From NCBI GenBank assembly GCA_947503885.1, contig CANNFD010000005.1, forward strand, positions 186,001 through 250,000: a stretch of 64,000 nt of DNA. The letters run 5' to 3'. This document shows, one piece after another, positions 4,841 through 18,840 of this stretch (the first letter of the stretch is position 1; the number at the start of each line of letters is the position of its first letter). A program made the position numbers and the translations under genes. The notes beneath the pieces are model-generated. The model had not been told where the DNA came from and searched no databases. It was given only the letters and a program-made list of their open reading frames with translations. The DNA is from an uncultured Olleya sp. (GTDB lineage Bacteria; Bacteroidota; Bacteroidia; Flavobacteriales; Flavobacteriaceae).

Positions 4841-5881
4841 TTAATAAAACCTACTGCAATCAATTTCTTTATCAAGAGGATATCCACTTTCGATAAAATT
4901 AAAAAGTTGATTAGCAACATAGGGTGCAATCATAACTCCTCTAGAACCTAAACCATTAAACAAGTACACATTTTGTTGTGTCTGATGCCTGCCAACTAAT
5001 GGCTTTCTATCTTTTACTGTTGGTCTTATACCTGCGACTTGTGTTATTACTTCAAAATCACAATTTACAAAGCTTTTAAGCTTGTCTAACAGCATTTGTC
5101 TTGCTTCTTGTGTAATTGTATTGGTTTTATCCTTTTGTTCATACGTAGAGCCTACTCTGTACATATCGTTTCCTAAAGGAATTACAAATACACTAGACTT
5201 TAATACATAATCCAATTTTAAATCTGGAGCATGAATGGTTAATAGTTGCCCTTTAGTGCCTCCTAAAGGTAATTGGTTAAAAAATGGATTTTGTTTAATT
5301 CCAAAACCTTCAGCAAAAACAATTTGATTAGCGTTAATATGTTTGTAGTTAATCTGATCTTGTTGAAAGTTTAAAGCAGAGTAGTTAAACGCTTCATTAA
5401 TTAGCCAATCATTTTTAATTAGATAATTTTTATAACTTTTTACAAGCAACTTAGTATCAAGTCTACCCGTACTAAAGACTTCTCCTAATTTAAAAGGTGC
5501 ATCAATTTTAGAATTATTGTTTTCAATAAGCTCTGTGTTAATAAAAGGCTTTAACCCTTCTTTGTCAGATGCCTCAAACCAATTATTTTGTTCTTCTAAA
5601 GAAGTAAAACGTCTTTTAACAGGGATTTTAAAATCTAAATTAACTCCCAAGTTATTTGCAATATTATTATAAGTAGGCAATGCAATTGCTAATTGCTCTT
5701 CACTTTTCCAAACAGGTGTAAAACGTTTTAATGTAACAGGATTATATAATCCGCCTGCAACAATTGATGATTGTTGAGAATTATCATCAAATACTATAAA
5801 TGACTTATTATGCGCTTTAAGTTTTTCACAAAAAGAAATACCAGCAAGTCCACATCCTACAATTATATAATCTACTTTCAT
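4841..5881 (-). CDS. FAD-dependent oxidoreductase, DAO (D-amino-acid oxidase-like) family
   Basis: A 346-residue flavoprotein with an N-terminal Rossmann FAD motif (VGCGLAG, residues 8-14), a conserved AGGLYNP segment, and a C-terminal block (GIRPTVKDRKPLVG, then LFNGLGSRG) typical of the DAO/glycine-oxidase superfamily, as found also in the oxidase half of MnmC. Such enzymes oxidise amines or N-methyl amino acids with oxygen; this one's substrate is unknown. The ATG at 5881 is preferred over an upstream alternative start because the FAD motif then sits at the usual distance from the N terminus. A TATTTTTG element (5893-5886) lies only four bases before the start, so a leaderless or very short-leader transcript is possible. 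Confidence 0.85.
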   Translation of the reverse strand: MKVDYIIVGCGLAGISFCEKLKAHNKSFIVFDDNSQQSSIVAGGLYNPVTLKRFTPVWKSEEQLAIALPTYNNIANNLGVNLDFKIPVKRRFTSLEEQNNWFEASDKEGLKPFINTELIENNNSKIDAPFKLGEVFSTGRLDTKLLVKSYKNYLIKNDWLINEAFNYSALNFQQDQINYKHINANQIVFAEGFGIKQNPFFNQLPLGGTKGQLLTIHAPDLKLDYVLKSSVFVIPLGNDMYRVGSTYEQKDKTNTITQEARQMLLDKLKSFVNCDFEVITQVAGIRPTVKDRKPLVGRHQTQQNVYLFNGLGSRGVMIAPYVANQLFNFIESGYPLDKEIDCSRFY

Positions 5882-5930
5882 TATGCAAAAATAGGATAAG
5901 TATATGAATATATTAGGAAGTACTAATAAC

Positions 5931-5963
5931 AAAAAAAACGCTCACTTTACAGTGAGCGTTTTT
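5931..5963 (-). terminator. Rho-independent terminator of the gldKLMN operon
   Basis: A perfect 13-bp stem (AAAAACGCTCACT / AGTGAGCGTTTTT) with a 4-base loop, followed on the minus strand by a run of eight T. It lies 22 bases after the gldN stop. Confidence 0.85.
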
Positions 5964-5985: not shown

Positions 5986-6885
5986 TTAGTAAGACCACAT
6001 GTCTAACTCGAAGTTTCTAATTTTTTCTTTAATTCTTTCAGATTCTAATAATTGCATTAATGCATTTTCAGCAATATACTCTTCAACCTTACGGTCACCA
6101 AATACATTTTCTTCTTTAAAAATGATACCATTAAAACGTCTAGCGTTTAAAATATGGTCAAAAGTAAATGGCATTGCACTGTTTTTAGCATTAAACGCTT
6201 TAGCTTCATGTAAGATATCTCTTGCATCTGGATAAAAAATCCAGAATAAAGGAATAGGCTCTTTATTAGCTTCATCATTAGAGTTAACGTAGTTAACATC
6301 TGGTGCAGCTGGAGCTAAACCTAAAAGTCTATATTTTAATTCGCCTTGACGCTTATCAAAATACCACATTCCTTTAATTAGGTATGCTGAAACATCATAA
6401 GAAGAAATAGTAGTTGTAGTAATATACTCTGGATCTACATAACCATCAGCATTTAGCTGATCATATCCAATATCCATAGTATCTACAGCTGTTCTAATTT
6501 GTGCTAATTCTTTTTTAGTACGTTTTCCGGTAAAGTAAGAATCGTTATAAACGTTTTCTATTGCACCTTCATCAATTGCTTTAGTTAACACATCAAATAA
6601 TGAACGTCTGTCACTTCCAATATTGTTAGTATCCACAGGATAGTATAATGGAAAATTTACACGCTCGTCTAAAACAACTTTTTCCCAAGTCATCTTAGCA
6701 AACATAACATCTCTATCATCAACATAACCGTACTCTAGAGGCTTATCGTTATCTAATGCTTTTTGTTCATCTGTTCTAAAACCAATCTCTTTTGGAGATT
6801 TAGCATTAAGAATATTAGATTGCGCATTGATTTGTGCTATAAACGCTACACTAAATACGACTGCTAATAAAGATTTGTAATTCAT
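5986..6885 (-). CDS. gldN: Gliding motility / type IX secretion protein GldN
   Basis: Periplasmic core component of the T9SS. GldN (PorN) forms, with GldK, a ring attached to the inner face of the outer membrane, and is required for gliding and for secretion of surface adhesins. The 299-residue protein has a cleavable signal peptide (hydrophobic to about residue 19, then AQS) and family-typical content: the SLFDVLTKAIDEG region, the YLIKGMWYFDKRQGELKYRLLG strand pair (residues about 166-187) and the PLFWIFYPDARD segment. Length and position as last gene of gldK-L-M-N match the family. Only a 41-base gap separates it from gldM, and a strong terminator follows, so it ends the transcription unit. 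Confidence 0.96.
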   Translation of the reverse strand: MNYKSLLAVVFSVAFIAQINAQSNILNAKSPKEIGFRTDEQKALDNDKPLEYGYVDDRDVMFAKMTWEKVVLDERVNFPLYYPVDTNNIGSDRRSLFDVLTKAIDEGAIENVYNDSYFTGKRTKKELAQIRTAVDTMDIGYDQLNADGYVDPEYITTTTISSYDVSAYLIKGMWYFDKRQGELKYRLLGLAPAAPDVNYVNSNDEANKEPIPLFWIFYPDARDILHEAKAFNAKNSAMPFTFDHILNARRFNGIIFKEENVFGDRKVEEYIAENALMQLLESERIKEKIRNFELDMWSY

Positions 6886-6926: not shown

Positions 6927-8465
6927 TTAGTTTGATAACTCAATAGCTATTGGGCTTGCTGGCTTAATTCTAACACCTGTATTAGATTTAGACTTAATAT
7001 CAAATATTTGAACTGCATCACCTCTTCTAGCTTTTCTTAATGCTGCTTTAGCTTGACCGTTAAGTTTACTTCCGTTAACATTAACTGTAGCTTGACCAGG
7101 CACTTTAAATTTAAATGATGTTACTGTTAAAGGTAAATCAAAGTCAAAATCTTCTAATACTGCTTTAATTGTTCCAATCTCAACATTATTTCTTGGTAAA
7201 CCTCCTTCAGACTTTCCAGCAATTGTACCAGAAGGCTTAGGAATATCTTTAATTCTAAACTTAGCATTATCAGACACTTTAGATCCATCAGGTAAAGTAC
7301 CAGTAACATTAATAGTTACTTCTTTTCCTGATCCAGGAGTCATAATGTATTTACCACCGCCTTTAGAAGATAATCCTGCTGCAGAAGCATTTACTTTATT
7401 ATCAGGTACACCTGCAAATGAAATAGTCATTGGGTTAGATACCCCTCTATAAACTACATTCATTTTATCTGCAGAAATAGTTGCAGCATTAGGTTTAGGA
7501 ATTACAGCATAAGAACTTTCAACTGGAATTGTAATAAGTGAATCTCCTTCTTTAAATTGGAACTCTCCACTAATTTTTTGTTCTCCAACTCTACCAGCAG
7601 GAAACTTTAACATAGTTTCACCAGCTTGCATAGCATCTTCATCTAATTCTTGACCATTAATAATTACCTTAAATGGTTTTAATGTAGCATCTTTCTTTCC
7701 TAAAATAATTCTTCCTGTAAATTGCTCTCCGTTGAAAAAAGCTGTTTTATCCGGAACAACAATAGCATCAAAATTTGTTAAAGATGCTTCTACTTTTAAC
7801 TTTCCAGCTAACATAGAAGATAACATCTCTGCTTCAGTTGTTTTAATATCAGATTGTAATTGAGTCATTTTAGTTAATGAAGCAACTAATGGGTATCCTT
7901 TAAAGTTATAATCTAACCACTCTAGTTTTTTACCTTCATTGTTTGTTACTTTATCTGTAGCAAATTTCTTTTCTACATCTGCAACAATATCTTTAAGATC
8001 AGGGTTATTAGCAAGTTCTGCTTTTACACCATTTCTATAAGTAGCAATTTGATCTAAAAATTCTTGACCATTTTTAGTGATTTTATCTCCACTAAAGAAG
8101 TATTGATCTAACCAATCTGTACCATCCATAGACTGGTAGTTAGTTGGATCATCTACCGTAGCAGTCATCTTACCTTTTAAATCTTCTAAGTAGTTACTTA
8201 AAGTGCTACCTAAATTAGTAATATTATCAGCTTCTGCCTTTAATGGTGCGTATTTTGCTGGTTGCTCAGACACCTTATCTGCTAAACCTTGCATAAACTG
8301 TGCATTACGTACATCTGCTGATTGGTTATTGTCTATTAACTTTGCATTCATTAATCCGAATGCTGATAATACTTCTTTAGACATATTCATTGCGATCATC
8401 GCGATGAATACTAAGTACATCAAGTTAATCATTTTTTGTCTTGCGGACTGTTTTCCTCCTGCCAT
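6927..8465 (-). CDS. gldM: Gliding motility / type IX secretion motor protein GldM
   Basis: GldM is the periplasm-spanning partner of GldL in the proton-driven T9SS rotary motor. It has one inner-membrane helix near the N terminus (about residues 15-35, LMYLVFIAMIAMNMS), a coiled-coil helical region, then a long rod of beta-sandwich domains reaching the outer-membrane ring. The 512 residues show exactly this: a short cytoplasmic Lys/Arg-rich start (MAGGKQSARQKM), the helix, a helical domain to about residue 225 and glycine/proline-rich beta domains to the end. It sits 48 bases after gldL and 41 before gldN. Length is normal for the family and no lesion is visible. Confidence 0.97.
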   Translation of the reverse strand: MAGGKQSARQKMINLMYLVFIAMIAMNMSKEVLSAFGLMNAKLIDNNQSADVRNAQFMQGLADKVSEQPAKYAPLKAEADNITNLGSTLSNYLEDLKGKMTATVDDPTNYQSMDGTDWLDQYFFSGDKITKNGQEFLDQIATYRNGVKAELANNPDLKDIVADVEKKFATDKVTNNEGKKLEWLDYNFKGYPLVASLTKMTQLQSDIKTTEAEMLSSMLAGKLKVEASLTNFDAIVVPDKTAFFNGEQFTGRIILGKKDATLKPFKVIINGQELDEDAMQAGETMLKFPAGRVGEQKISGEFQFKEGDSLITIPVESSYAVIPKPNAATISADKMNVVYRGVSNPMTISFAGVPDNKVNASAAGLSSKGGGKYIMTPGSGKEVTINVTGTLPDGSKVSDNAKFRIKDIPKPSGTIAGKSEGGLPRNNVEIGTIKAVLEDFDFDLPLTVTSFKFKVPGQATVNVNGSKLNGQAKAALRKARRGDAVQIFDIKSKSNTGVRIKPASPIAIELSN

Positions 8466-8513: not shown

Positions 8514-9149
8514 TTAGTTTTTGTTCATTGCAGATAACATACCTCCATATACTCCGTTTAAAGAAGATAAGTTAGATGCTAAAGATTGCATTTGCTCTTT
8601 TAATTTAGTTGCATTTTCTACTGCTTCTTCATTAATTGATGCTTGACGACTAGCGCTATCCATTTGTACTTTGTAAAGACTATTTAAAGACTCCATTTGT
8701 GCAGCAGCTAATGACATTTCTTCACCATATTTTTTAGTAGCAGCGATAGAATCTACAGTTGGTGAGATTCCTTTTGCAGCTCCTTCAAAGTTTTTAATGC
8801 TTGTACCTAAGCTTGCCATTAATTCTGCATCAATTTTAGCTTCTTTTAATAAGCTGTCTAATTTTTTAGATAATAAACCTTCTGCATCTTTAGGATCTTC
8901 TTTCTTTGCACCTTTTTTGTTTGATGCTTGACCTCCTGCTAATTCTGGATAAACAAGTGACCAATCTAAATCACCACCTTGCTTTTCAAAAGCAGATAAT
9001 GTAAATACGATAGCTTCAACAATCATACCTATTGTTAAAATAAGTGATCCATAAGGCCAGTGTTGGATTTTAAATAAAGCTCCAATAATTACAATTGCTG
9101 CTCCAATTCCATAAACCATATTCATTGTTGAAAGTTTCTTTTGTGCCAT
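8514..9149 (-). CDS. gldL: Gliding motility / type IX secretion motor protein GldL
   Basis: Inner-membrane stator-like subunit of the T9SS motor, predicted by family knowledge to form a pentamer around two GldM chains and to be driven by the proton gradient. The 211-residue sequence has two N-terminal membrane helices (about 12-28 and 34-54), with a conserved glutamate (MIVEAIVF) in the second helix at the position implicated in proton coupling. A long cytoplasmic helical tail rich in Ala, Ser, Lys and Glu follows. It lies between gldK and gldM, with gaps of 67 and 48 bases. Confidence 0.97.
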   Translation of the reverse strand: MAQKKLSTMNMVYGIGAAIVIIGALFKIQHWPYGSLILTIGMIVEAIVFTLSAFEKQGGDLDWSLVYPELAGGQASNKKGAKKEDPKDAEGLLSKKLDSLLKEAKIDAELMASLGTSIKNFEGAAKGISPTVDSIAATKKYGEEMSLAAAQMESLNSLYKVQMDSASRQASINEEAVENATKLKEQMQSLASNLSSLNGVYGGMLSAMNKN

Positions 9150-9216: not shown

Positions 9217-10584
9217 TTATTGTCTTGCATTAGCTGTTATGTCTGTTCCCATATAATCTTGAACAGTTCTGAAACCGATATAACTTCTTGCAGAATCTGC
9301 ATACTCATAATCTCTTGAACTTACTTGTAAGTAGTAAGCAACGTCCTTCCATGATCCACCACGAACAACTTTACGTTTGTTTCTAGGGTCATTAACACTT
9401 GGATTAATTGTCGAAGCATATTCATATGAAGCTGGATCGTAAGATGAGTCTACCCATTCTGAAACATTTCCAGCCATGTTATACAAGTTAAAATCATTCG
9501 GCTCGTAAGCATCAGCTTCTACAGTATATAAAGATTGATCTGCAGCATAATCACCACGTAATGGCTTAAAGTTTGCCATAAAACAACCTCTGTCGTTTTT
9601 AGCATAAGGTCCTCCCCATGGAAAAGTAGCAGCTTGCAACCCACCTCTTGCAGCGTATTCCCATTGTGCTTCCGATGGTAATCTGTAACGTGCTACATTG
9701 TGTAGCTTTCTAGCTCTTCTTGCGTCATTATGATATTTTGTTCTCCACTCACAAAATGCTTTAGCTTGTTGCCAAGAGACACCTACTACAGGATAGTCAC
9801 TGTAAGCATCATGCCAAAAATAGTCATTGTGCATAGGCTCGTTATAAGAGTAAGCAAAGTCTCTAATCCAAGATGTAGTATCTGGATAAATTTCTACTTC
9901 TTCTCTAACAATTACGTCTTTACGACGTAAGTTTTTGTTTTTTGCTGCTTTAGCTATGTCCATATACGTGTATTGGAACTTAAATTTAGTTACGTCCCAA
10001 GTACGTTGTCCGTTATAAGATTCTTCTAAAGGTAAATACATAGTATCCATAACCTCTACATAATACTCGTCTGGATACTCTGAAGTATCGAATATTAAAT
10101 CAACATCATAATTAAGCTTTCTACCTTCATAACCTGTTTCTCCTAAACCGCTATAGTTATCAATCATGTATTGCTCATATGGCGTCAAATCACCTTCTTC
10201 TGCATCTTTAAATGCAAATTGGCCAATCCCCTCGTCAGATCCAGTCATTCCAACCTCATCAGCTAAAATTGCTAATTTAGTACGGATTGTAGAATCTCTT
10301 ACCCATTCTACGAATTGACGGTACTCACTATTTGTGATTTCCGTTTCATCCATATAGAAAGATGCAACAGTTACTGTTTTAGCAGGTGCGTCTTGGATTC
10401 CAGCTAAATCATCATCTGCTTTACCCATAATAAAAGCTCCACCAGGAACTAATGTCATACCGTAAGGTTTTTCTGGGTGCCATTTTTTTCCTTTGGCACC
10501 TACAAGCTGACCTTTATCTTTTGATCCACAACTTACTAATAGTGCGAAAACCGCTGTTAATAATACAAACTTCTTCATATTCAT
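9217..10584 (-). CDS. gldK: Gliding motility lipoprotein GldK (T9SS outer-membrane ring)
   Basis: Outer-membrane lipoprotein that forms the T9SS periplasmic ring with GldN. A lipoprotein signal (LLVSC, cysteine at about residue 19) is followed by a formylglycine-generating-enzyme-like (FGE/SUMF1) fold. Diagnostic pieces are GMTLVPGGAFIMG, YRLPSEAQWEYAARGG, YNMAGNVSEWVDS and KVVRGGSWKD; GldK is not thought to be enzymatic. Length (455) fits GldK and not the related GldJ. Two ATGs are possible, at 10584 and at 10578; the latter gives the more usual MKKF start. It is first in the gldKLMN group, with a promoter-like sequence 46-76 bases upstream, so the operon can be expressed apart from the upstream arginase-like gene. 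Confidence 0.96.
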   Translation of the reverse strand: MNMKKFVLLTAVFALLVSCGSKDKGQLVGAKGKKWHPEKPYGMTLVPGGAFIMGKADDDLAGIQDAPAKTVTVASFYMDETEITNSEYRQFVEWVRDSTIRTKLAILADEVGMTGSDEGIGQFAFKDAEEGDLTPYEQYMIDNYSGLGETGYEGRKLNYDVDLIFDTSEYPDEYYVEVMDTMYLPLEESYNGQRTWDVTKFKFQYTYMDIAKAAKNKNLRRKDVIVREEVEIYPDTTSWIRDFAYSYNEPMHNDYFWHDAYSDYPVVGVSWQQAKAFCEWRTKYHNDARRARKLHNVARYRLPSEAQWEYAARGGLQAATFPWGGPYAKNDRGCFMANFKPLRGDYAADQSLYTVEADAYEPNDFNLYNMAGNVSEWVDSSYDPASYEYASTINPSVNDPRNKRKVVRGGSWKDVAYYLQVSSRDYEYADSARSYIGFRTVQDYMGTDITANARQ

Positions 10585-10629
10585 TGAAAACTCGAGGTTA
10601 ATTTAAAACTCTTAATTTTTTTAAGAGCG

Positions 10630-10660
10630 TAAACATATTTATATATTTCTTAAAAAACAA
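10630..10660 (-). promoter_or_regulatory. Predicted promoter of the gldKLMN operon
   Basis: On the minus strand TTG (10660-10658), a 20-base spacer, then TATGTTTA (10637-10630), which differs from TAnnTTTG only in the last base. A small hairpin (CTCTTAA/TTAAGAG, 10609-10627) lies at the predicted transcript start. Confidence 0.45.
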
Positions 10661-10747
10661 CTTTTTTTACAAAAAAAAATACATTTCATCGTAAAAATTT
10701 AACATTTAAACGATATAAAATGTCGTTTATCTGTTCATCTATTTCGT

Positions 10748-11914
10748 TTATACGCTATTTTTATGATAAGCCTTATACCATCTCTCTGGTATTTTATCAT
10801 TGCAAGCATCTAGATAGTCTTGATGCGTGCATGGTAATAACGTATGTTTTTTTAATTTATTATTAACATTTGCTAAAAATGGTATTTCTATCCACCAGCG
10901 TCCAGTTTTTATACTCTTATAGAAAATTAATTCATGAGATTCTGCTAAAGTAATGAATTTTTGATGATTCTCACCATTAGAAAAGTCATCATCTTGAACT
11001 CTACAGTTAACTCCTTCTATAAAATACCATATCATTTGTGAAATTAACATTGATGTAATATCATCATATTGAGATGGTTTATACTCATAAATACCAAATG
11101 AAGATACTTTATTGCTAATACCTGCATATCTTGCTACTGTACAAATTTCTTTTCCGTCCAACCCGTTAGGTGACACCTTTTGTTTTAGACCAACCTCTGA
11201 AGCTTTTAATGCTCCTAAGTCAACACTTACAATGTTTGCATCCCTCATTACAGGTTCTACCAAAGTAAGGTCATTAGATATTTCTCCTAGTCGATATGGC
11301 TCAAAATATAATCGTTCCATTAGATCAATTTCTTCCTGACTATTAAAATAAGTTTGATAACCAATAATTGCGTAATTAAACAAATTGTACGGTTCGTCTA
11401 AAATTATTTTACCTACAAAGCTTGTGTTTTTAATAGGCTTAGAAGAATCTCCTAAATCAAAAGATTTATCAACGTTGACAATATTTACCATTGGCATCAA
11501 ATTGTCATAAGCCCTATAATTAGCATAAGACAAATCCTGACTACCTCCTATTATTACTGGGATAATCTTATTTTTAATTAAAGTAGTAAGGGTTTCTTTT
11601 AATGCAAAATAGGTATCTTCAACACGTTCTCCTTTTTCAATATCGCCAATATCTGCAATCGACGTACTCCAACTTCCGGGGTATAAAGTGTACAAAGATT
11701 TTCTAATTTCATTTAAATTAAAATCTTCACCTATATAATTAACATCGTTTCTGTTTTCTAGAACTCCAAGAATAACGATTTTAACATCGCTTAGGTCTGG
11801 AAGCCCATTTTGTGCAGAGTGAATCTTAATTTTTTGACCTAGACTTAATGGCGATAATAATTGATTATGCGCTAAAACAGCATCTGAAACTGGGGTAAGA
11901 AAATTAAAATTCAT
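10748..11914 (-). CDS. Arginase/formimidoylglutamase-fold protein with degenerate metal site
   Basis: A 388-residue member of the ureohydrolase (arginase, agmatinase, formimidoylglutamase) superfamily, probably not a normal enzyme of that group. The three metal-binding blocks can be aligned but are altered. GGxH reads GGSQD (residues 123-127), so the first histidine is Gln126. DAHxD reads DKSFD (149-153), keeping both Asp but with Ser in place of His. The DxD block reads SVDLGALK (230-237), keeping the first Asp but with Gly for the second. Three of six Mn ligands are thus missing while the frame stays open and flanking structure is kept, which suggests a conserved non-catalytic or repurposed role. 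It starts 8 bases after topA ends and lies just upstream of gldK. Automatic annotation would probably call it formimidoylglutamase. Confidence 0.8.
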   Translation of the reverse strand: MNFNFLTPVSDAVLAHNQLLSPLSLGQKIKIHSAQNGLPDLSDVKIVILGVLENRNDVNYIGEDFNLNEIRKSLYTLYPGSWSTSIADIGDIEKGERVEDTYFALKETLTTLIKNKIIPVIIGGSQDLSYANYRAYDNLMPMVNIVNVDKSFDLGDSSKPIKNTSFVGKIILDEPYNLFNYAIIGYQTYFNSQEEIDLMERLYFEPYRLGEISNDLTLVEPVMRDANIVSVDLGALKASEVGLKQKVSPNGLDGKEICTVARYAGISNKVSSFGIYEYKPSQYDDITSMLISQMIWYFIEGVNCRVQDDDFSNGENHQKFITLAESHELIFYKSIKTGRWWIEIPFLANVNNKLKKHTLLPCTHQDYLDACNDKIPERWYKAYHKNSV

Positions 11915-11922
11915 TTATAATA

Positions 11923-14466
11923 CTATTTCTTTTTTGCTGTAGTTTTTTTCTTAGCAGCTGTTTTTTTAGTTGCTGTTTTCTTTTTGGCAGGTGCTTTCTT
12001 TTTAGCTGCAGCCTTTTTCTTAGGCGCTTTCTTCTCTATCATATCCTTAACTTCTTCTAAAGTTAAAGCTGCTGCATCTACAGTTTTAGGTAATTCTATC
12101 TTTATTTTACCTTTTAGAATATTATGTCTTCCCCAACGTGCTTTTTCTACACGTATACCTTCTTCTTCCCAATTATGGACAACTTTATCTATTTCTTTCT
12201 GAATTTTAGCATCAATCAATTCTTCTAAATCAGCATTTGATAAATTATCCCAATCGTATTTTTTATTAACGTTAATAAACAAACCATTCCATTTAATGAA
12301 TGGTCCAAAACGTCCTTTACCTTTTGTTACTCCTTCTCCTTTATAGGTGTAAATAGGTGCATCTGCTATTTCTTTTTCTTTAATCAACTCAATTGCGTCT
12401 TCAATCTCAATATTTAATGGATCTTGACCTGGCGCTAAAGAGACAAACTTTTTACCATATTTAACATAAGGTCCAAAACGTCCGTTATTAACTTCTACGG
12501 TTTCGTCCTCATATTTACCTAAAGTTCTAGGTAATTTAAATAAATCCATTGCCTCTTCATAGGTAATACTTCCTAGTTGTTGGTCTGGACTTAAACTTGC
12601 AAATGTTGGTTTTTCTTCGTCATCAACAGTTCCCATTTGTACCATTGGTCCAAATTTACCTAGACGTACACTAACTTGTTTTCCTGTTTTTGGGTCTTTA
12701 CCTAATATACGCTCTCCTGACTCTCTGTCTGCATTTTCCTGAACATCAACGACTACTGGATGAAACTTTTTATAAAAAGCTTTCATCATCTTTTTCCAAT
12801 CTTCTTTACCTTCTGCAATATCATCAAATTGACTTTCAACCTTTGCTGTAAAGTTATAATCCAGAATACTTTCAAAATGATTTACCAAAAAGTCTGTTAC
12901 AATCATACCAATATCAGTTGGTACTAACTTACCTTTATCAGACCCTACTTTTTCTGAAAGCGTATTGTCTTTTACATTACCTTCTTCTAATACTAATTGT
13001 GTATATTCTCTTTCTACACCTTCAATAGTCCCTTTTTCTACATAGTTTCTGTTTTGAATAGTAGAAATTGTTGGGGCATAAGTTGACGGACGCCCAATAC
13101 CTAACTCTTCTAACTTCTTAACTAAAGAAGCTTCAGTATATCTATATGGTGCACGACTATAACGTTCGGTTGCTGTTATATACTTATTAAGTAACGTTTC
13201 GTTTTTCTTCATTGCAGGAAGCATTCCTTCTTGCTCTAAATCTTCATCATCTGTACCTTCTAAATAAACTTTTAAAAAGCCATCAAATTTTATCACCTCT
13301 CCATTAGCTGTAAAGGTTTGATTGTGTGTATTTGCTTCTATTTTAACATTAGTACGCTCTAATTGTGCGTCACTCATTTGAGATGCAATTGCACGCTTCC
13401 AAATTAAATCATACAAACGTGCTTGGTCGTAATCTATATCTACACTATGTGTTTTAAAATCTGTAGGTCTAATCGCTTCGTGAGCTTCTTGAGCCCCTTT
13501 AGATTTTCCTTTAAAATTACGCTCCTTACTATATTCTTTACCGTAGGCATCAATAATTTCTTTTTCTGCTCCTTTTCTAGCTTCATCAGATAAATTAACA
13601 CTATCTGTTCTCATGTAAGTAATCAAACCGGCTTCGTATAAACGTTGTGCCATGGTCATTGTTTTACTAACAGAGAAATATAACTTACGTGACGCTTCTT
13701 GTTGCAAGGTTGAAGTAGTAAATGGTGCTGCTGGAGATTTTTTAGCTGGTTTTTTAGTTAAATCTGCTACTTTAAAATCTGCGCTTGCATTGCTTTCTAA
13801 AAAGTCAAATGCTTCTTTTTTAGTTGAAAATGTCTTTGGAAGCTTCGCCTTAAAGGACTGTCCAGCTTCGTTTGAAAATTCTGCATCAATCCTATAAGAT
13901 GCTTCTGGTTTAAAATTTTGTATTTCGCGTTCACGCTCTACAATTAATCTAACCGAAACAGATTGCACACGACCTGCAGACAACCCTCCTTTAACTTTTC
14001 TCCATAAAACAGGAGACAACTCGTACCCTACTATTCTATCTAATACACGACGTGCTTGTTGTGCATCCACCAAATCGTAATCTATTTGTCTTGGGTTTTC
14101 AACTGCTTTTTGAATTGCAGATTTAGTAATCTCATGAAAAACGATACGTTTAGTTTTGTCTTTATCTAAATTTAAAGATTCTGCTAAGTGCCAGGCTATA
14201 GCCTCACCCTCTCTATCTTCATCACTTGCTAACCAAACCATTTCGGCTTTTTTAGCTAAATCCTTTAATTTTTTAACGACTGCCTTTTTATCTGAAGACA
14301 CCTCGTATTTTGGATCAAAATCTCCTTCAACATCTACTCCCAATTCCTTAGATGGTAAGTCAGCAATATGCCCAAAACTGGATTCGACTTTAAAGTCTTT
14401 ACCTAAAAATTTTTCAATTGTTTTTGCTTTTGCTGGTGACTCTACTATTACTAAATTCTTCGCCAT
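11923..14466 (-). CDS. topA: DNA topoisomerase I (type IA)
   Basis: Relaxes negative supercoils through a transient 5'-phosphotyrosine link. The 847-residue product begins at the ATG at 14466, which puts the Toprim motif VESPAKAKTIEKFLG right at the N terminus; an upstream alternative start adds 11 residues of no family character. Also visible are the acidic DEDREGEAIAWHL triad, the active-site region LITYMRTDSV, and the RPSTYAPTI block. The C-terminal part has three GRFGP-type repeats in place of classical four-cysteine zinc ribbons, and the chain ends in a Lys/Ala-rich tail of about 35 residues. It is divergent from miaB across a 154-base region holding promoter-like elements for both. Confidence 0.97.
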   Translation of the reverse strand: MAKNLVIVESPAKAKTIEKFLGKDFKVESSFGHIADLPSKELGVDVEGDFDPKYEVSSDKKAVVKKLKDLAKKAEMVWLASDEDREGEAIAWHLAESLNLDKDKTKRIVFHEITKSAIQKAVENPRQIDYDLVDAQQARRVLDRIVGYELSPVLWRKVKGGLSAGRVQSVSVRLIVEREREIQNFKPEASYRIDAEFSNEAGQSFKAKLPKTFSTKKEAFDFLESNASADFKVADLTKKPAKKSPAAPFTTSTLQQEASRKLYFSVSKTMTMAQRLYEAGLITYMRTDSVNLSDEARKGAEKEIIDAYGKEYSKERNFKGKSKGAQEAHEAIRPTDFKTHSVDIDYDQARLYDLIWKRAIASQMSDAQLERTNVKIEANTHNQTFTANGEVIKFDGFLKVYLEGTDDEDLEQEGMLPAMKKNETLLNKYITATERYSRAPYRYTEASLVKKLEELGIGRPSTYAPTISTIQNRNYVEKGTIEGVEREYTQLVLEEGNVKDNTLSEKVGSDKGKLVPTDIGMIVTDFLVNHFESILDYNFTAKVESQFDDIAEGKEDWKKMMKAFYKKFHPVVVDVQENADRESGERILGKDPKTGKQVSVRLGKFGPMVQMGTVDDEEKPTFASLSPDQQLGSITYEEAMDLFKLPRTLGKYEDETVEVNNGRFGPYVKYGKKFVSLAPGQDPLNIEIEDAIELIKEKEIADAPIYTYKGEGVTKGKGRFGPFIKWNGLFINVNKKYDWDNLSNADLEELIDAKIQKEIDKVVHNWEEEGIRVEKARWGRHNILKGKIKIELPKTVDAAALTLEEVKDMIEKKAPKKKAAAKKKAPAKKKTATKKTAAKKKTTAKKK

Positions 14467-14485
14467 TCTTCGATTTTTGTGAGTG

Positions 14486-14493
14486 CAAAGGTA
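14486..14493 (-). promoter_or_regulatory. Predicted -7 element of topA
   Basis: TACCTTTG on the minus strand matches TAnnTTTG, 20 bases before the topA ATG. I see no clear TTG at the right distance, so this is a partial match. Confidence 0.35.
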
Positions 14494-14555
14494 TATCAAA
14501 AAAAATTTATCATCCTAATTTTATAAGTTTTAGCTAAAATTTAAGGTCTGTCATA

Positions 14556-14620: not shown

Positions 14621-16051
14621 ATGGATAAAACAATAGACGAAAATAAACAAGGTGAAACTTTAGTGATTTCTGAAAAAAAAGAAAACACAAAAAAACTTTT
14701 TATTGAAAGTTATGGCTGCGCCATGAACTTTAGTGACAGCGAAATTGTAGCGTCAATACTTCAAAACGAAGGGTTTAACACAACTCAAAAACTTGAAGAT
14801 GCCGACTTAGTTTTAGTAAACACCTGCTCTATCCGTGATAAGGCTGAGCAAACTGTACGCAAACGTTTACAAAAGTATAATGCTGTTAAAAGAGATATCA
14901 ACCCTAAAATGAAAGTTGGCGTTTTAGGCTGTATGGCTGAGCGTTTAAAAAGTAAATTTTTAGAAGAAGAAAAAATTGTAGACCTAGTAGTTGGTCCTGA
15001 CGCGTATAAGGATTTACCAAATCTAATTGCAGAAGTTGACGAAGGTCGTGATGCTATTAACGTTATTTTATCTAAAGAAGAAACTTACGGGGACATTAGC
15101 CCTGTCCGTTTAAACACTAATGGAGTTACTGCTTATGTATCTATAACAAGAGGTTGTGATAATATGTGTACATTTTGTGTGGTCCCTTTTACAAGAGGTA
15201 GAGAACGCAGTCGTGATCCACAAAGTATTATAGAAGAAGTTAATGACCTTTGGAACAGAGGTTATAAAGAAATTACCCTTTTAGGACAAAACGTAGACAG
15301 CTACCTTTGGTATGGTGGCGGTTTGAAAAAGGATTTTGATAAAGCATCAGATATTGAAAAGGCTACAGCTGTTGATTTTGCTAAATTATTAGAGTTATGC
15401 GCAAAAGCACAGCCTGTAATGCGTATTCGTTTTAGCACATCAAACCCACAAGACATGCATCTTGAGGTGATAAAAACTATGGCTAAATATGATAACATTT
15501 GTAATCACATCCATTTACCTGTACAAAGTGGTAGTAACAAAATATTAAAAGCGATGAATCGTTTACATACTCGTGAAGAGTATTTTACACTTATCGATAA
15601 TATAAAAAAAATAATACCTGGTTGTGCGATTAGTCAAGATATGATTGCTGGTTTTCCAACCGAAACTGAACAAGACCATCAAGACACATTAAGTTTAATG
15701 GAGTATGTAAAATATAATTTTGGTTATATGTTTACTTATTCTGAACGTCCTGGTACTTTAGCAGAACGCAAGTTTGAAGACGATGTTCCGGAAGAAACTA
15801 AAAGCAGAAGATTAAGCGAAATTATTGCGCTACAACTTAAACATAGTGAGTTTAGAACTAAACAATTTTTAAACACTACTGTTGAAGTCTTGATAGAAAG
15901 AGAATCTAAAAAATCTAACCAAGAATGGTCTGGGCGTACCCAACACAACATTGTTGTAGTATTTCCAAAAGGAAATCATAAAGTAGGAGATTTAGTAAAT
16001 GTTAAAATAACAGACTGTACTAAAGCAACACTTATTGGTGAAGCGATTTAG
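14621..16051 (+). CDS. miaB: tRNA-2-methylthio-N6-isopentenyladenosine37 methylthiotransferase MiaB
   Basis: Radical-SAM enzyme that adds a methylthio group to isopentenyl-A37 of tRNAs reading UNN codons. The order of parts is typical. The N-terminal UPF0004 domain carries three cysteines for the auxiliary iron-sulfur cluster (SYGCAMN at about residue 33, [12 protein letters not shown], and VLGCMAERL). The radical-SAM triplet CDNMCTFC lies within [20 protein letters not shown], and a C-terminal TRAM domain closes the chain. The DKAEQ stretch after the second cysteine is the MiaB-type form and not the RimO form. Length 476 is normal. It is the first gene of the run that continues with a lipoprotein, a sigma-54 activator, lptE and secG. 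Confidence 0.96.
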
Positions 16052-16099
16052 AAAAAAAAAGATTTACAAATAAATGCTTTAAAGCAAAACAAAAAAAAC

Positions 16100-17026
16100 A
16101 TGAAAAAAATAGTAGTTTTATTAGTATCCTTAGGTTTATTCTCTGCATGTCAAAATGAACCTTTAGAAGGTTTTACATTTGACCCAGAAACCGGCACAGA
16201 TAATGGAACAGATCCAGGTACTGAAAACAGTGACTTACAATTATCAAACTACACATTTGATGTAGATACTGAAGTTCCGTTTTTAGGCCCATTAACCATT
16301 AACACAGATTTTACGTTTAACACCAATAATAAAGTATCAAACTTAGATGTAGAGACTGTTGCTTTTGGATTTCCTGTTGTTGCAAGCGGTACGTTAACTA
16401 GAGATGCTAGTGGTAAAATAACAACTGTAAAAAACTTTGAAGGCGCTACACAGATCAACCAAACAGATATTAGCTACACTTCGGATAATAACATTTCTCA
16501 AATTTCATTTGATGACTTCCAAGACGACACAGAAGATTACACTTATAGTTTTACATCAACTGGTAACACTATAACTAAAACTGAAGTAGGCAACCCAATA
16601 GAAACGCTATACACAACAGATGCATCAGGTAGATTAATTGAAAAGTCTTCTTACGAAAACGGTATTAGTATACAACAAGAGTTTTTAACTTACGATGCTA
16701 ACGGTAATTGTATATCTGTAATTTCCTCTGGAGAAAATGACAACAATACAACCTATGGTTTTGACACCTTTACCAATCCTTTAAAAAATGGGTTTAGTGA
16801 CCAATATTGGTTAACAATTTTAGATGATGATTATGATGCTGAAGCTGGTCCTGCAATCGTACAATTTCATAGTACAAATAACTGGAATTCGGTTACAGCA
16901 GACGGAAGCACTGTTACTTTTATGATGAACTATAATTCTGCTAATAGAATAACTAGTAGAAGCGGAACATTTTCTTTAGACGGAGTCGATTTAGTGCAAG
17001 AAGAAACTTTTAATTACACTAACTAA
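16100..17026 (+). CDS. Hypothetical lipoprotein
   Basis: I do not recognise this 308-residue protein. It has a clear lipoprotein signal peptide (MKKIVVLLVSLGLFSAC, lipid cysteine at residue 17), then a low-complexity Gly/Thr/Asp/Glu segment (about 27-45). A beta-rich body follows with repeated TYxxNGxxxxxx-type strands (for example ITYTSDNNIS-like and LTYDANGNCISV), loosely reminiscent of YD/RHS-like strand repeats in Bacteroidota lipoproteins. It is acidic with few lysines. It lies between miaB and the sigma-54 activator with gaps of 48 and 9 bases, so it is probably cotranscribed; the close spacing to the activator makes it a candidate envelope-side partner, but that is only inference. Confidence 0.75.
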   Translation: MKKIVVLLVSLGLFSACQNEPLEGFTFDPETGTDNGTDPGTENSDLQLSNYTFDVDTEVPFLGPLTINTDFTFNTNNKVSNLDVETVAFGFPVVASGTLTRDASGKITTVKNFEGATQINQTDISYTSDNNISQISFDDFQDDTEDYTYSFTSTGNTITKTEVGNPIETLYTTDASGRLIEKSSYENGISIQQEFLTYDANGNCISVISSGENDNNTTYGFDTFTNPLKNGFSDQYWLTILDDDYDAEAGPAIVQFHSTNNWNSVTADGSTVTFMMNYNSANRITSRSGTFSLDGVDLVQEETFNYTN

Positions 17027-17035
17027 AAAGCTTAA

Positions 17036-18304
17036 ATGGAGTCAATACAATCTATAAAACAACGGTTTGGAATTATTGGAAATAGCCCGACATTAAATCG
17101 TGCTATAGAAAAGGCAATTCAAGTAGCACCAACAGACATATCTGTTTTGGTTACTGGAGAAAGTGGAGTTGGAAAAGAGAGTATGCCTAAAATAATCCAT
17201 CAACTTTCTCATAGAAAACATGGTAAATATATTGCAGTAAACTGTGGTGCAATCCCTGAAGGAACAATAGACAGCGAACTTTTTGGTCACGAAAAAGGGG
17301 CATTTACTGGAGCAACCGCAACCAGAAGTGGCTATTTTGAAGTCGCAGATGGTGGAACAATATTTTTAGATGAAGTTGGAGAACTTCCATTAACAACACA
17401 AGTACGCTTATTACGTGTACTAGAAAATGGAGAGTTTATTAAAGTAGGTTCTAGTAAAGTACAAAAAACTAATGTCCGTATTGTTGCAGCTACAAACGTA
17501 AATATGTTTGACGCAATTAAAAAAGGAAAATTTAGAGAAGACCTTTTTTACCGTTTAAGCACCGTAGATATTAATCTTCCTCCTTTAAGAGAGCGTCAAG
17601 AAGACATCCATATTTTATTCAGAAAATTTGCAAGCGACTTCGCTTTAAAATATAAAATGCCAACCATTAAATTGACTGATGACGCAGTTAGTTTATTACT
17701 TAAATATCGCTGGAGCGGAAACATAAGACAATTACGTAATGTTGCCGAGCAGGTCTCTGTTTTAGAACAAAACAGAACCATAACAGCCCAAGTTTTACAT
17801 AGCTATTTACCAACAGGAAACAACCTACCTGTAGTAGTAAACAACTCTAAATCCGAAAGTGATTTTGGAAATGAGCGCGAAATACTTTACAAAGTATTAT
17901 TTGACATGAAAGCCGATTTAAACGACTTAAAAAAGCTAACCATGGAATTAATGAAAACTGGAAATGCAAAGGATGTCAAGAAAAATAATGAAAATTTGAT
18001 TCAGAAAATCTATGGCGAAAACGAAAGTGAAGCAGAGTTTGATGAACATATAGAAGACATGCAAGTATTGTCAATCTCTCAAAACTCTGAGAACTCAAAA
18101 CCAGTAGTCACTGAAACAGAACAAGACAAATACCATTTTGCAGAAGAGATTGAGGAAGAAGAGACATTATCTTTACACGATAAAGAATTAGAATTAATAA
18201 AAAAATCTTTAGAGCGCCACAATGGAAAACGTAAGCTTGCTGCTGAAGAATTAGGTATTAGTGAGCGTACACTTTACAGAAAAATTAAACAATTTGATTT
18301 ATAA
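17036..18304 (+). CDS. Sigma-54-dependent transcriptional activator lacking a sensor domain
   Basis: A bacterial enhancer-binding protein that would open sigma-54 RNA polymerase promoters using ATP. The AAA+ domain starts almost at the N terminus: Walker A GESGVGKE at residues 41-48, the sigma-54-contacting GAFTGA loop at 88-93, Walker B GTIFLDEVGEL at about 107-117, and the arginine-finger region FREDLFYRLS. A C-terminal Fis-type helix-turn-helix (KLAAEELGISERTLYRKIK) binds DNA. Between them, about residues 270-375, is an acidic linker. There is no N-terminal response-regulator, GAF or PAS domain, so activity must be set by abundance, the linker or a partner protein. It sits 9 bases after the lipoprotein gene and 29 before lptE. 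A sigma-54-like promoter lies downstream before groES. Confidence 0.93.
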   Translation: MESIQSIKQRFGIIGNSPTLNRAIEKAIQVAPTDISVLVTGESGVGKESMPKIIHQLSHRKHGKYIAVNCGAIPEGTIDSELFGHEKGAFTGATATRSGYFEVADGGTIFLDEVGELPLTTQVRLLRVLENGEFIKVGSSKVQKTNVRIVAATNVNMFDAIKKGKFREDLFYRLSTVDINLPPLRERQEDIHILFRKFASDFALKYKMPTIKLTDDAVSLLLKYRWSGNIRQLRNVAEQVSVLEQNRTITAQVLHSYLPTGNNLPVVVNNSKSESDFGNEREILYKVLFDMKADLNDLKKLTMELMKTGNAKDVKKNNENLIQKIYGENESEAEFDEHIEDMQVLSISQNSENSKPVVTETEQDKYHFAEEIEEEETLSLHDKELELIKKSLERHNGKRKLAAEELGISERTLYRKIKQFDL

Positions 18305-18333
18305 ATCAACGTTGTAAAGCCAAATAAAATTAA

Positions 18334-18840
18334 ATGAAACATATTAAATACATTTTACTTTTAGTTACTTCAACAATCCTTTTAGGATGTGGTGCGTATT
18401 CATTTACAGGTGTACAAGATCTTGGGGACGCTAAAACTTTTCAAGTTAATTATTTCCAGAATAATGCGCCATTAATAGAGCCTGGATTAGAGAGAGATTT
18501 TACAATAGCATTACAAGATTTAATTCAAAATCAAACCAGTTTAAGCCTAGTAAACTCAAACGGGGATTTAGTATATGAAGGCGAAATAACAGAATATAGA
18601 ATCTCTCCTACTACTGCAACTGCCAATAGTACAGCTGCACAAAACAGATTAACAATAGGTGTTAATGTTAGATTTTACAATAAAAAAGATGACGAGAATG
18701 ATTTTGATAGAAAGTTCTCTTTTTATTATGATTATACTGGAAGTCAACTATTATCAGGAGCAATTAAAGCAACTGCTTTTGAAGAAATATTTGAACGTTT
18801 AACTCAAGATATTTTTAACGCATCACTAGCAAATTGGTAA
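18334..18840 (+). CDS. lptE: LptE family LPS-assembly lipoprotein
   Basis: LptE plugs the outer-membrane LptD barrel and helps deliver lipopolysaccharide to the cell surface. The 168-residue product has a lipoprotein signal ending LLGCGAYSFTG (cysteine at about residue 19). It is followed by the alpha/beta fold typical of Bacteroidota LptE: a strand pair with TFQVNYFQNNAP, a helix with RDFTIALQDLIQNQTSLSL, GDLVYEGEITEYRISP, and a C-terminal amphipathic helix. The same order of sigma-54 activator, lptE, TPR-like gene and secG is, to my knowledge, common in Flavobacteriaceae. It ends 4 bases before the next gene. Function is assigned by family resemblance and context; LptE proteins are poorly conserved in sequence. 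Confidence 0.85.
   Translation: MKHIKYILLLVTSTILLGCGAYSFTGVQDLGDAKTFQVNYFQNNAPLIEPGLERDFTIALQDLIQNQTSLSLVNSNGDLVYEGEITEYRISPTTATANSTAAQNRLTIGVNVRFYNKKDDENDFDRKFSFYYDYTGSQLLSGAIKATAFEEIFERLTQDIFNASLANW

Follow-up and report, generated by a model that had tools for sequence, protein, structure and literature searches.

Ureohydrolase chemistry uses a binuclear metal cluster. In rat arginase I, we take the ligands of the first metal (Mn A) to be His101, Asp124, Asp128, and Asp232, and those of the second (Mn B) to be His126, Asp124, Asp232, and Asp234. The protein described here, referred to below as pseudo-ureohydrolase, resembles formimidoylglutamases (HutG; PDB 3m1r and 4mxr) in sequence and, over residues ~15–307, in fold (Z 32–34); it differs from them in the loss of the site B ligands, in an additional C-terminal extension, in its genomic context, and in a score below the HutG cut-off. 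Arginase-fold pseudoenzymes are already on record in the accessible parts of two sources, namely MetCb/MfmB of metformin hydrolase (PMC11271267; PDB 8x3g, 8snf, and 8ryi) and the arginase-like protein of Trypanosoma brucei (PMC10820115; PDB 4rhm and others). According to the accessible part of PMC11271267, MetCb has lost five of the six ligands, is paired with the adjacent active subunit MetCa, and is required for the activity of the latter, and MetCa variants with a ligand replaced by Ala are inactive. The T. brucei protein has lost its Mn cluster, as the accessible part of PMC10820115 describes; it belongs to another lineage, and its loss pattern is different (S149, R151, S153, and S226, according to a PDB title). 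Pseudo-ureohydrolase shares the arginase fold with both, but, unlike MetCb, no partner gene was found for it in 5 of 25 genomes and its site A is spared. We know of no secretion-system context for the T. brucei protein, whereas the pseudo-ureohydrolase gene lies, in many families, in the same cluster as porP-porK-porL-porM-porN (gldK–gldN) of the type IX secretion system (T9SS). Much of the phylum relies on this system for protein export and gliding, and, to our knowledge, pseudo-ureohydrolase is not among its known components.

The gene was found in a window of 64,000 nucleotides of an uncultured Olleya sp. (contig CANNFD010000005.1, positions 186,001 to 250,000). The genus belongs to the Flavobacteriaceae, whose class is named Flavobacteriia in NCBI and, as we assume for this genome in GTDB, Bacteroidia. 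The nearest named relative is Olleya marilimosa, with 94% protein identity. The ORF is intact from its ATG to its TAA, and all five neighbours, topA and gldK–gldN, pass the NCBIfam equivalog cut-off of their own family (Table 1). The NG86 dN/dS of 0.04–0.09 in four of six gene pairs, at a dS of 0.9–2.3, which is near saturation, indicates purifying selection; dS was not computable in the other two pairs. No signal peptide is apparent by eye, and none of the NCBIfam T9SS models matches the protein.

Table 1. Coordinates of the pseudo-ureohydrolase gene, its conserved parts, and its neighbours in the window.
Feature	Position	Strand	Basis
Pseudo-ureohydrolase gene, 388 aa	10748..11914	minus	ORF list, PF00491, AlphaFold2 model
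Arginase/formiminoglutamase-fold domain, residues ~44–306	10997..11785	minus	PF00491 match over 46–298; VIA-align to formiminoglutamases and arginases
Conserved C-terminal extension, residues 305–388	10751..11002	minus	Orthologue alignment
Q126 codon, site A His position	11537..11539	minus	Orthologue alignment
D149-K150-S151-F152-D153	11456..11470	minus	Orthologue alignment
D232-L233-G234	11213..11221	minus	Orthologue alignment
topA, DNA topoisomerase I	11923..14499	minus	8 bp upstream of the pseudo-ureohydrolase gene, same strand
gldK (PorK)	9217..10584	minus	TIGR03525, 591 bits; 163 bp downstream of the pseudo-ureohydrolase gene
gldL (PorL)	8514..9149	minus	TIGR03513
gldM (PorM)	6927..8465	minus	TIGR03517
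gldN (PorN)	5986..6885	minus	TIGR03523

Several other features of the locus can be noted. The AT-rich gap at 10585–10747, between the pseudo-ureohydrolase gene and gldK, contains TATGTTTA, which we take to be close to the Bacteroidetes -7 motif; given this resemblance, gldK may have its own promoter there. After gldN, positions 4841–5932 encode an FAD-dependent oxidoreductase (PF01266), which is below the cut-off of all nine NCBIfam models matched and is present in 31 of the 39 Flavobacteriaceae loci examined. Beyond topA, a divergent lptE-ntrC-miaB set (14621–18840) is retained in many families of the class (for example, at loci L094, L223, and L235; LptE and NtrC were labelled by eye), so the T9SS cluster is part of a larger old gene neighbourhood. 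A phage or mobile origin was rejected, since one scan of viral contigs yielded 12 pattern matches and no relative.

The window protein matches PF00491 with 48.4 bits (gathering cut-off 22), which places it in the ureohydrolase superfamily, and all 35 members of the profile set A1 match this model as well (E < 0.01). No match to PF00491 or any other Pfam model was found in the three short f5 copies scanned. A structure prediction, as the original prediction had proposed, was obtained with AlphaFold2 from 63 sequences (the window protein and 62 relatives from one scan of named genomes), with a mean pLDDT of 90.8 and a pTM of 0.92. Residues 21–306 of the model superimpose on Trypanosoma cruzi formiminoglutamase (4mxr) with a Z of 33.6 and an rmsd of 2.2 Å over 275 residues, and the Z for rat arginase I (1rla) is 25.8. 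AlphaFold2, Foldseek, and VIA-align together indicate the three-layer arginase fold, and phmmer aligns the protein to the Bacillus formimidoylglutamase 3m1r. The ligands of binuclear catalysis are lost while the gene is under selection, as in a pseudoenzyme, and pseudo-ureohydrolase is most likely an arginase-fold protein repurposed from a formiminoglutamase-like ancestor.

It had been claimed from the window alone that half of the metal ligands (Q126, S151, and G234) are lost in a frame intact for 388 residues. This is confirmed, with the alignment supported by PF00491, phmmer, and AlphaFold2. The protein carries GGSQD with Q126, DKSFD at 149–153, and S230-V231-D232-L233-G234-A235-L236-K237-A238; thus, the canonical H-D-H-D-D-D reads Q-D-S-D-D-G, three of the six ligands are missing, and the set is not that of an active enzyme. 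The positions that serve Mn B only, mapped from rat arginase I, are 151 and 234, and position 126 is presumably equivalent to N114 of T. cruzi formiminoglutamase. Two HutG-like proteins (L129 and L131, family f27) have Asn for the first ligand His with the other five ligands intact, perhaps at this same N114 position.

The proposed alignment of orthologues gave the same result across the family. Among 239 orthologues (234 distinct sequences, five rows repeating an identical one), position 151 is His in 5 and position 234 is Asp in 3, whereas Asp149 and Asp232 are each found in 237 and Asp153 in 220, the remaining 19 having Asn. Position 126 is occupied by Gln (212), His (23), Asn (3), or Ser (1); 143 sequences have Lys or Arg at 151, and Glu277 is found in 188. 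Seven HutG-like loci (L128–L134) and the paralogues were left out of these counts as non-members, as were the f5 loci L119–L121, L123, and L124, whose first half is either absent or cannot be aligned, and the seven f2 loci were counted apart. Among the 388 columns of the 239 sequences, D149, D232, and D153 rank 20, 22, and 53 in conservation, and positions 151 and 234 rank 314 and 323; with a better-balanced selection of 94 sequences, the three Asp residues rank 20–24. The full HDHDDD set occurs in none of the 246 orthologues, f2 included. Since the same positions are lost in orthologues, the loss is not a sequencing accident.

Judged by the ligand columns, metal site B is deleted and site A is kept across the family apart from f2, because the losses are confined to 151 and 234 while D149, D153, and D232 are near-invariant. 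With these three residues and Gln, His, or Asn at 126, one metal could be bound at site A in most members. In f2, all seven loci (L115–L118 and L125–L127) show N-S-I/V-S-N-D, i.e., five of the six ligands are lost, which indicates that the function of pseudo-ureohydrolase does not require a metal everywhere. The initial description as a pseudoenzyme or a repurposed, metal-free protein therefore holds as regards a repurposed protein under selection, but a metal-free state as the general rule is rejected by the column counts and fits f2 only.

A tree was built from 44 chosen members of the 246, together with seven HutG-like proteins and two paralogues. All 44 members are on one side of a branch with a support of 97/98; of the non-members placed in the tree, the HutG-like sequences come closest, and the two paralogues have very long branches. 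The f2 orthologues, two of which were included, also form a long branch. The deepest split among the members sets off families f8, f9, and f79. The f8 and f79 members have His126, whereas f9 has Gln or His; as f8 and f79 still carry the His, positions 151 and 234 were most likely lost before His126 changed to Gln. The genes of f8 and f79 are not linked to T9SS genes; the linkage may be ancestral or may have been acquired after the f8/f9/f79 split.

Past the arginase fold, the protein has a C-terminal extension of ~85 residues with near-invariant F331, W340, W341, C362, and Y367, and many of the best conserved residues fall in this part. It is common to the orthologues: the alignment covers residue 331 in all 246 and residue 362 in 245 of them, the single miss being a contig end. 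In none of the 35 members does Pfam match the extension. Predicted alone, it gave a pLDDT of 80.5 and a pTM of 0.69, and no fold match was found in the PDB (best Foldseek E 0.83, best VIA-align Z 3.6), although the lack of a match is no proof of a new fold. In the f5 family, whose copies match the family profile, the short copies L120 (277 aa) and L121 (278 aa) align mainly over the second half and the extension. In L120, L121, and L124, which lie beside murF and gldJ-like genes, the C-terminal part can be recognised, whereas the arginase domain lacks its first half or cannot be aligned over it.

The order topA–pseudo-ureohydrolase–gldK, which the original prediction had suggested comparing among Flavobacteriaceae, is kept on the same strand in 36 of 39 loci and in 77 of 80 loci from named genomes. 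Taken separately, gldK is directly downstream on the same strand in 38/39 and 78/80, and topA is upstream in 36/39 and 79/80. Of the three misses for gldK and four for topA, contig ends account for two each (the exceptions are the contig ends at L073, L170, L201, and L208, L078 without topA, and L089 without both). In 36 other GTDB families, represented by 40 loci taken from the better-scoring rows of the profile search, porP is directly downstream in 31 loci and is followed by gldK in 30 (L226 ends there), and topA is upstream in 32. Overall, 31 of the 44 families with examined loci have the gene directly ahead of gldK or porP-gldK, i.e., the linkage is conserved. The unlinked families are f2, f3, f4, f8, f9, f67, f71, f79, f90, f94 (contig end), and f100. 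The less favourable cases came from the draw across the phylum, in which f6 and f7 are linked, f2 is near topA only, and f3, f4, f8, and f9 are unlinked; the gldK clusters of these last four families (one genome each) lack the pseudo-ureohydrolase gene.

In three of five f5 loci and the single f98 locus, the gene is found at a gldJ-like/porP/porU locus. Conversely, porP-gldK without the pseudo-ureohydrolase gene was observed at seven loci (L262–L265 and L267–L269), in genomes with no or only a weak profile match. The labels porP, gldJ-like, murF, and porU were assigned by eye and then checked with profiles: representatives of PorP/SprF, MurF, and PorU score above their cut-offs, while the gldJ-like protein matches GldJ best, with 410 of the 458 bits of its cut-off. 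The PorP proteins directly downstream at L094 and L099 are above the PorP/SprF cut-off. Two gldN-like genes each are present at L222, L234, L236, L241, L244, L257, and L259.

The presence of the gene was compared with that of the T9SS protein SprA, whose search matched none of 14 control genomes. A single-sequence search detected pseudo-ureohydrolase in every one of 149 Flavobacteriaceae genomes, which represent 148 genera and include sizes as small as 1.6 Mb; as all 149 also have SprA, that sample carries no information on co-occurrence. In the class sample of 247 genomes, 235 match the 35-member profile (232 at E < 1e-30) and 239 have SprA; 232 genomes have both, 3 have pseudo-ureohydrolase only, 7 have SprA only, and 5 have neither. 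The three keepers without SprA are G150, G484, and G576, the first two being of one genus; no GldK above the cut-off was found in G484 and G576, and in G150 the gldK/L/M/N-like genes are unusually oriented (L275).

In the order of genome G368, probably Bacteroidales, 106 of 148 genomes match the profile (101 strictly) and 139 have SprA. All 106 matching genomes are SprA-positive, and none of the nine SprA-negative genomes has the gene; on the other hand, 33 of the 139 SprA-positive genomes lack it (38 with strict matches), so it is not present in all T9SS genomes. Fisher's test, which ignores kinship, gives p ~6e-6 for each sample and 2e-5 with strict matches in the order; the two samples share at least seven genomes. 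Weak profile matches (1e-4 to 1e-20; five in the order and three in the class), which are probably HutG or other paralogues, were excluded from the strict counts. In a wider draw across the phylum, a single-sequence search matched 180 of 392 genomes, many weakly, and the matches outside the class that were examined in detail were HutG-like (L128–L134).

We consider it somewhat better than an even bet that pseudo-ureohydrolase is a repurposed cytoplasmic pseudoenzyme that serves type IX secretion or gliding. This is favoured by the linkage in many families and by the absence of the gene from the SprA-less genomes of the G368 order. The 33 genomes of that order and 7 of the 239 SprA-positive genomes of the class without the gene show that T9SS can exist without it; the former, together with the three SprA-less genomes that keep the gene, point to an accessory part and not a core one. 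Site B would have been deleted before the members studied here diverged, and the C-terminal extension is common to all of them. The protein probably stays in the cytoplasm and, as is common among its fold relatives, may self-associate. It would act as an assembly or regulatory partner of the T9SS/gliding apparatus, possibly with its C-terminal part contacting GldL/GldM on their cytoplasmic side. The pocket that is left at site A may bind a single metal ion or small ligand in a structural or regulatory capacity, rather than for urea-type hydrolysis, and the frequent Lys/Arg at 151 may make up for the charge lost with the second metal. More tentatively, and as a possibility that we hold with low confidence, it may be an unrecognised cytoplasmic component of the T9SS/gliding machinery, a one-metal pseudo-arginase that controls the assembly or running of the GldL–GldM motor by sensing a metal or a guanidino compound; the extension would then be a new domain, and the protein would date back far in the class and have disappeared from a few T9SS lineages.

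A different and, in our view, unlikely explanation is that the protein has remained an enzyme. Through site A and Glu277, it would hydrolyse with a single metal, or else bind, a guanidino, amidine, or imino substrate of a new kind. The conservation of D149, D153, and D232 and the frequency of Glu277 agree with it, and so does the occurrence of His126 in 12 of the 16 f4/f8/f9 loci, where all four site A ligands are thus present. According to PDB titles, the structure of T. cruzi formiminoglutamase contains two Mn and an N114H variant of this enzyme has been engineered, which implies that a residue other than His is tolerated at the equivalent position. However, ureohydrolases use the binuclear cluster, the Ala variants of MetCa described above are inactive, the f2 proteins keep the rest of the sequence after losing five ligands, and many of the best-conserved residues lie outside the arginase domain, in the extension.

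The original prediction had suggested a link with topA or with the T9SS genes. Gene order supports the latter, and the TopA link looks weaker. It is quite improbable that pseudo-ureohydrolase is a housekeeping protein co-translated with topA and serving chromosome topology or topA expression, with the gld genes as bystanders. In its favour, the gap to topA is 8 bp in the window and, between frame ends in Flavobacteriaceae, mostly -25 to +20. As porP/gldK usually lies farther from the gene than topA does, co-transcription with the latter may dominate. In f2, topA is 0.1–3.6 kb upstream in six of seven loci and T9SS genes are not near; L233 and L261 have an adjoining topA and no porP/gldK, as does L248, where the contig ends 1.6 kb downstream. 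The opposite arrangement, porP/gldK kept and no adjoining topA, occurs at L078, L099, L232, and L250, and some f5 copies and the f98 copy lie at the gldJ-like locus without topA. Moreover, topA is expected in all these genomes, but the pseudo-ureohydrolase gene is absent from all nine SprA-negative genomes of the G368 order.

By analogy with MetCb, the protein might be the inactive partner subunit of an active ureohydrolase, and the window genome does have two other arginase-family genes. These paralogues are on other contigs, however, and in 5 of the 25 genomes checked (G003, G040, G041, G058, and G112) no PF00491 match besides pseudo-ureohydrolase was found, which contradicts MetCaCb-type pairing as a general mechanism and leaves this explanation very improbable. 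That the protein is a genuine but diverged HutG is barely credible: TIGR01227 (hutG) is its closest NCBIfam model, and is matched by all 35 A1 members, and formiminoglutamases are among the nearest folds, but the score is 69.2 bits against a cut-off of 229.15, no hut gene is among the seven neighbours scanned, the ligands are lost, and the window genome has a separate paralogue, L002 (C1:292378-293172), with GGGH, DAHTD, and DCD intact. From this best match, far below the cut-off, mis-annotation as formimidoylglutamase is plausible.

A literature search, whose coverage left out most subscription journals, found no paper describing this gene beside gldK, no mutant, and no experiment linking pseudo-ureohydrolase to secretion or gliding. 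In the accessible part of PMC12147357, the mentions of gldK and topA are reference-list entries. As far as the searched literature shows, the T9SS context, the retention of site A with deletion of site B, and the C-terminal extension are new. A gene that lies beside porP/gldK in ~30 families is easily missed when it bears the name of a metabolic enzyme and is absent from some T9SS lineages. Its ligand series, with site A containing His, Gln, or Asn or being lost, the last in a family that we guess to be Weeksellaceae (f2), provides a natural set in which to follow the conversion of an enzyme fold into a non-enzyme.
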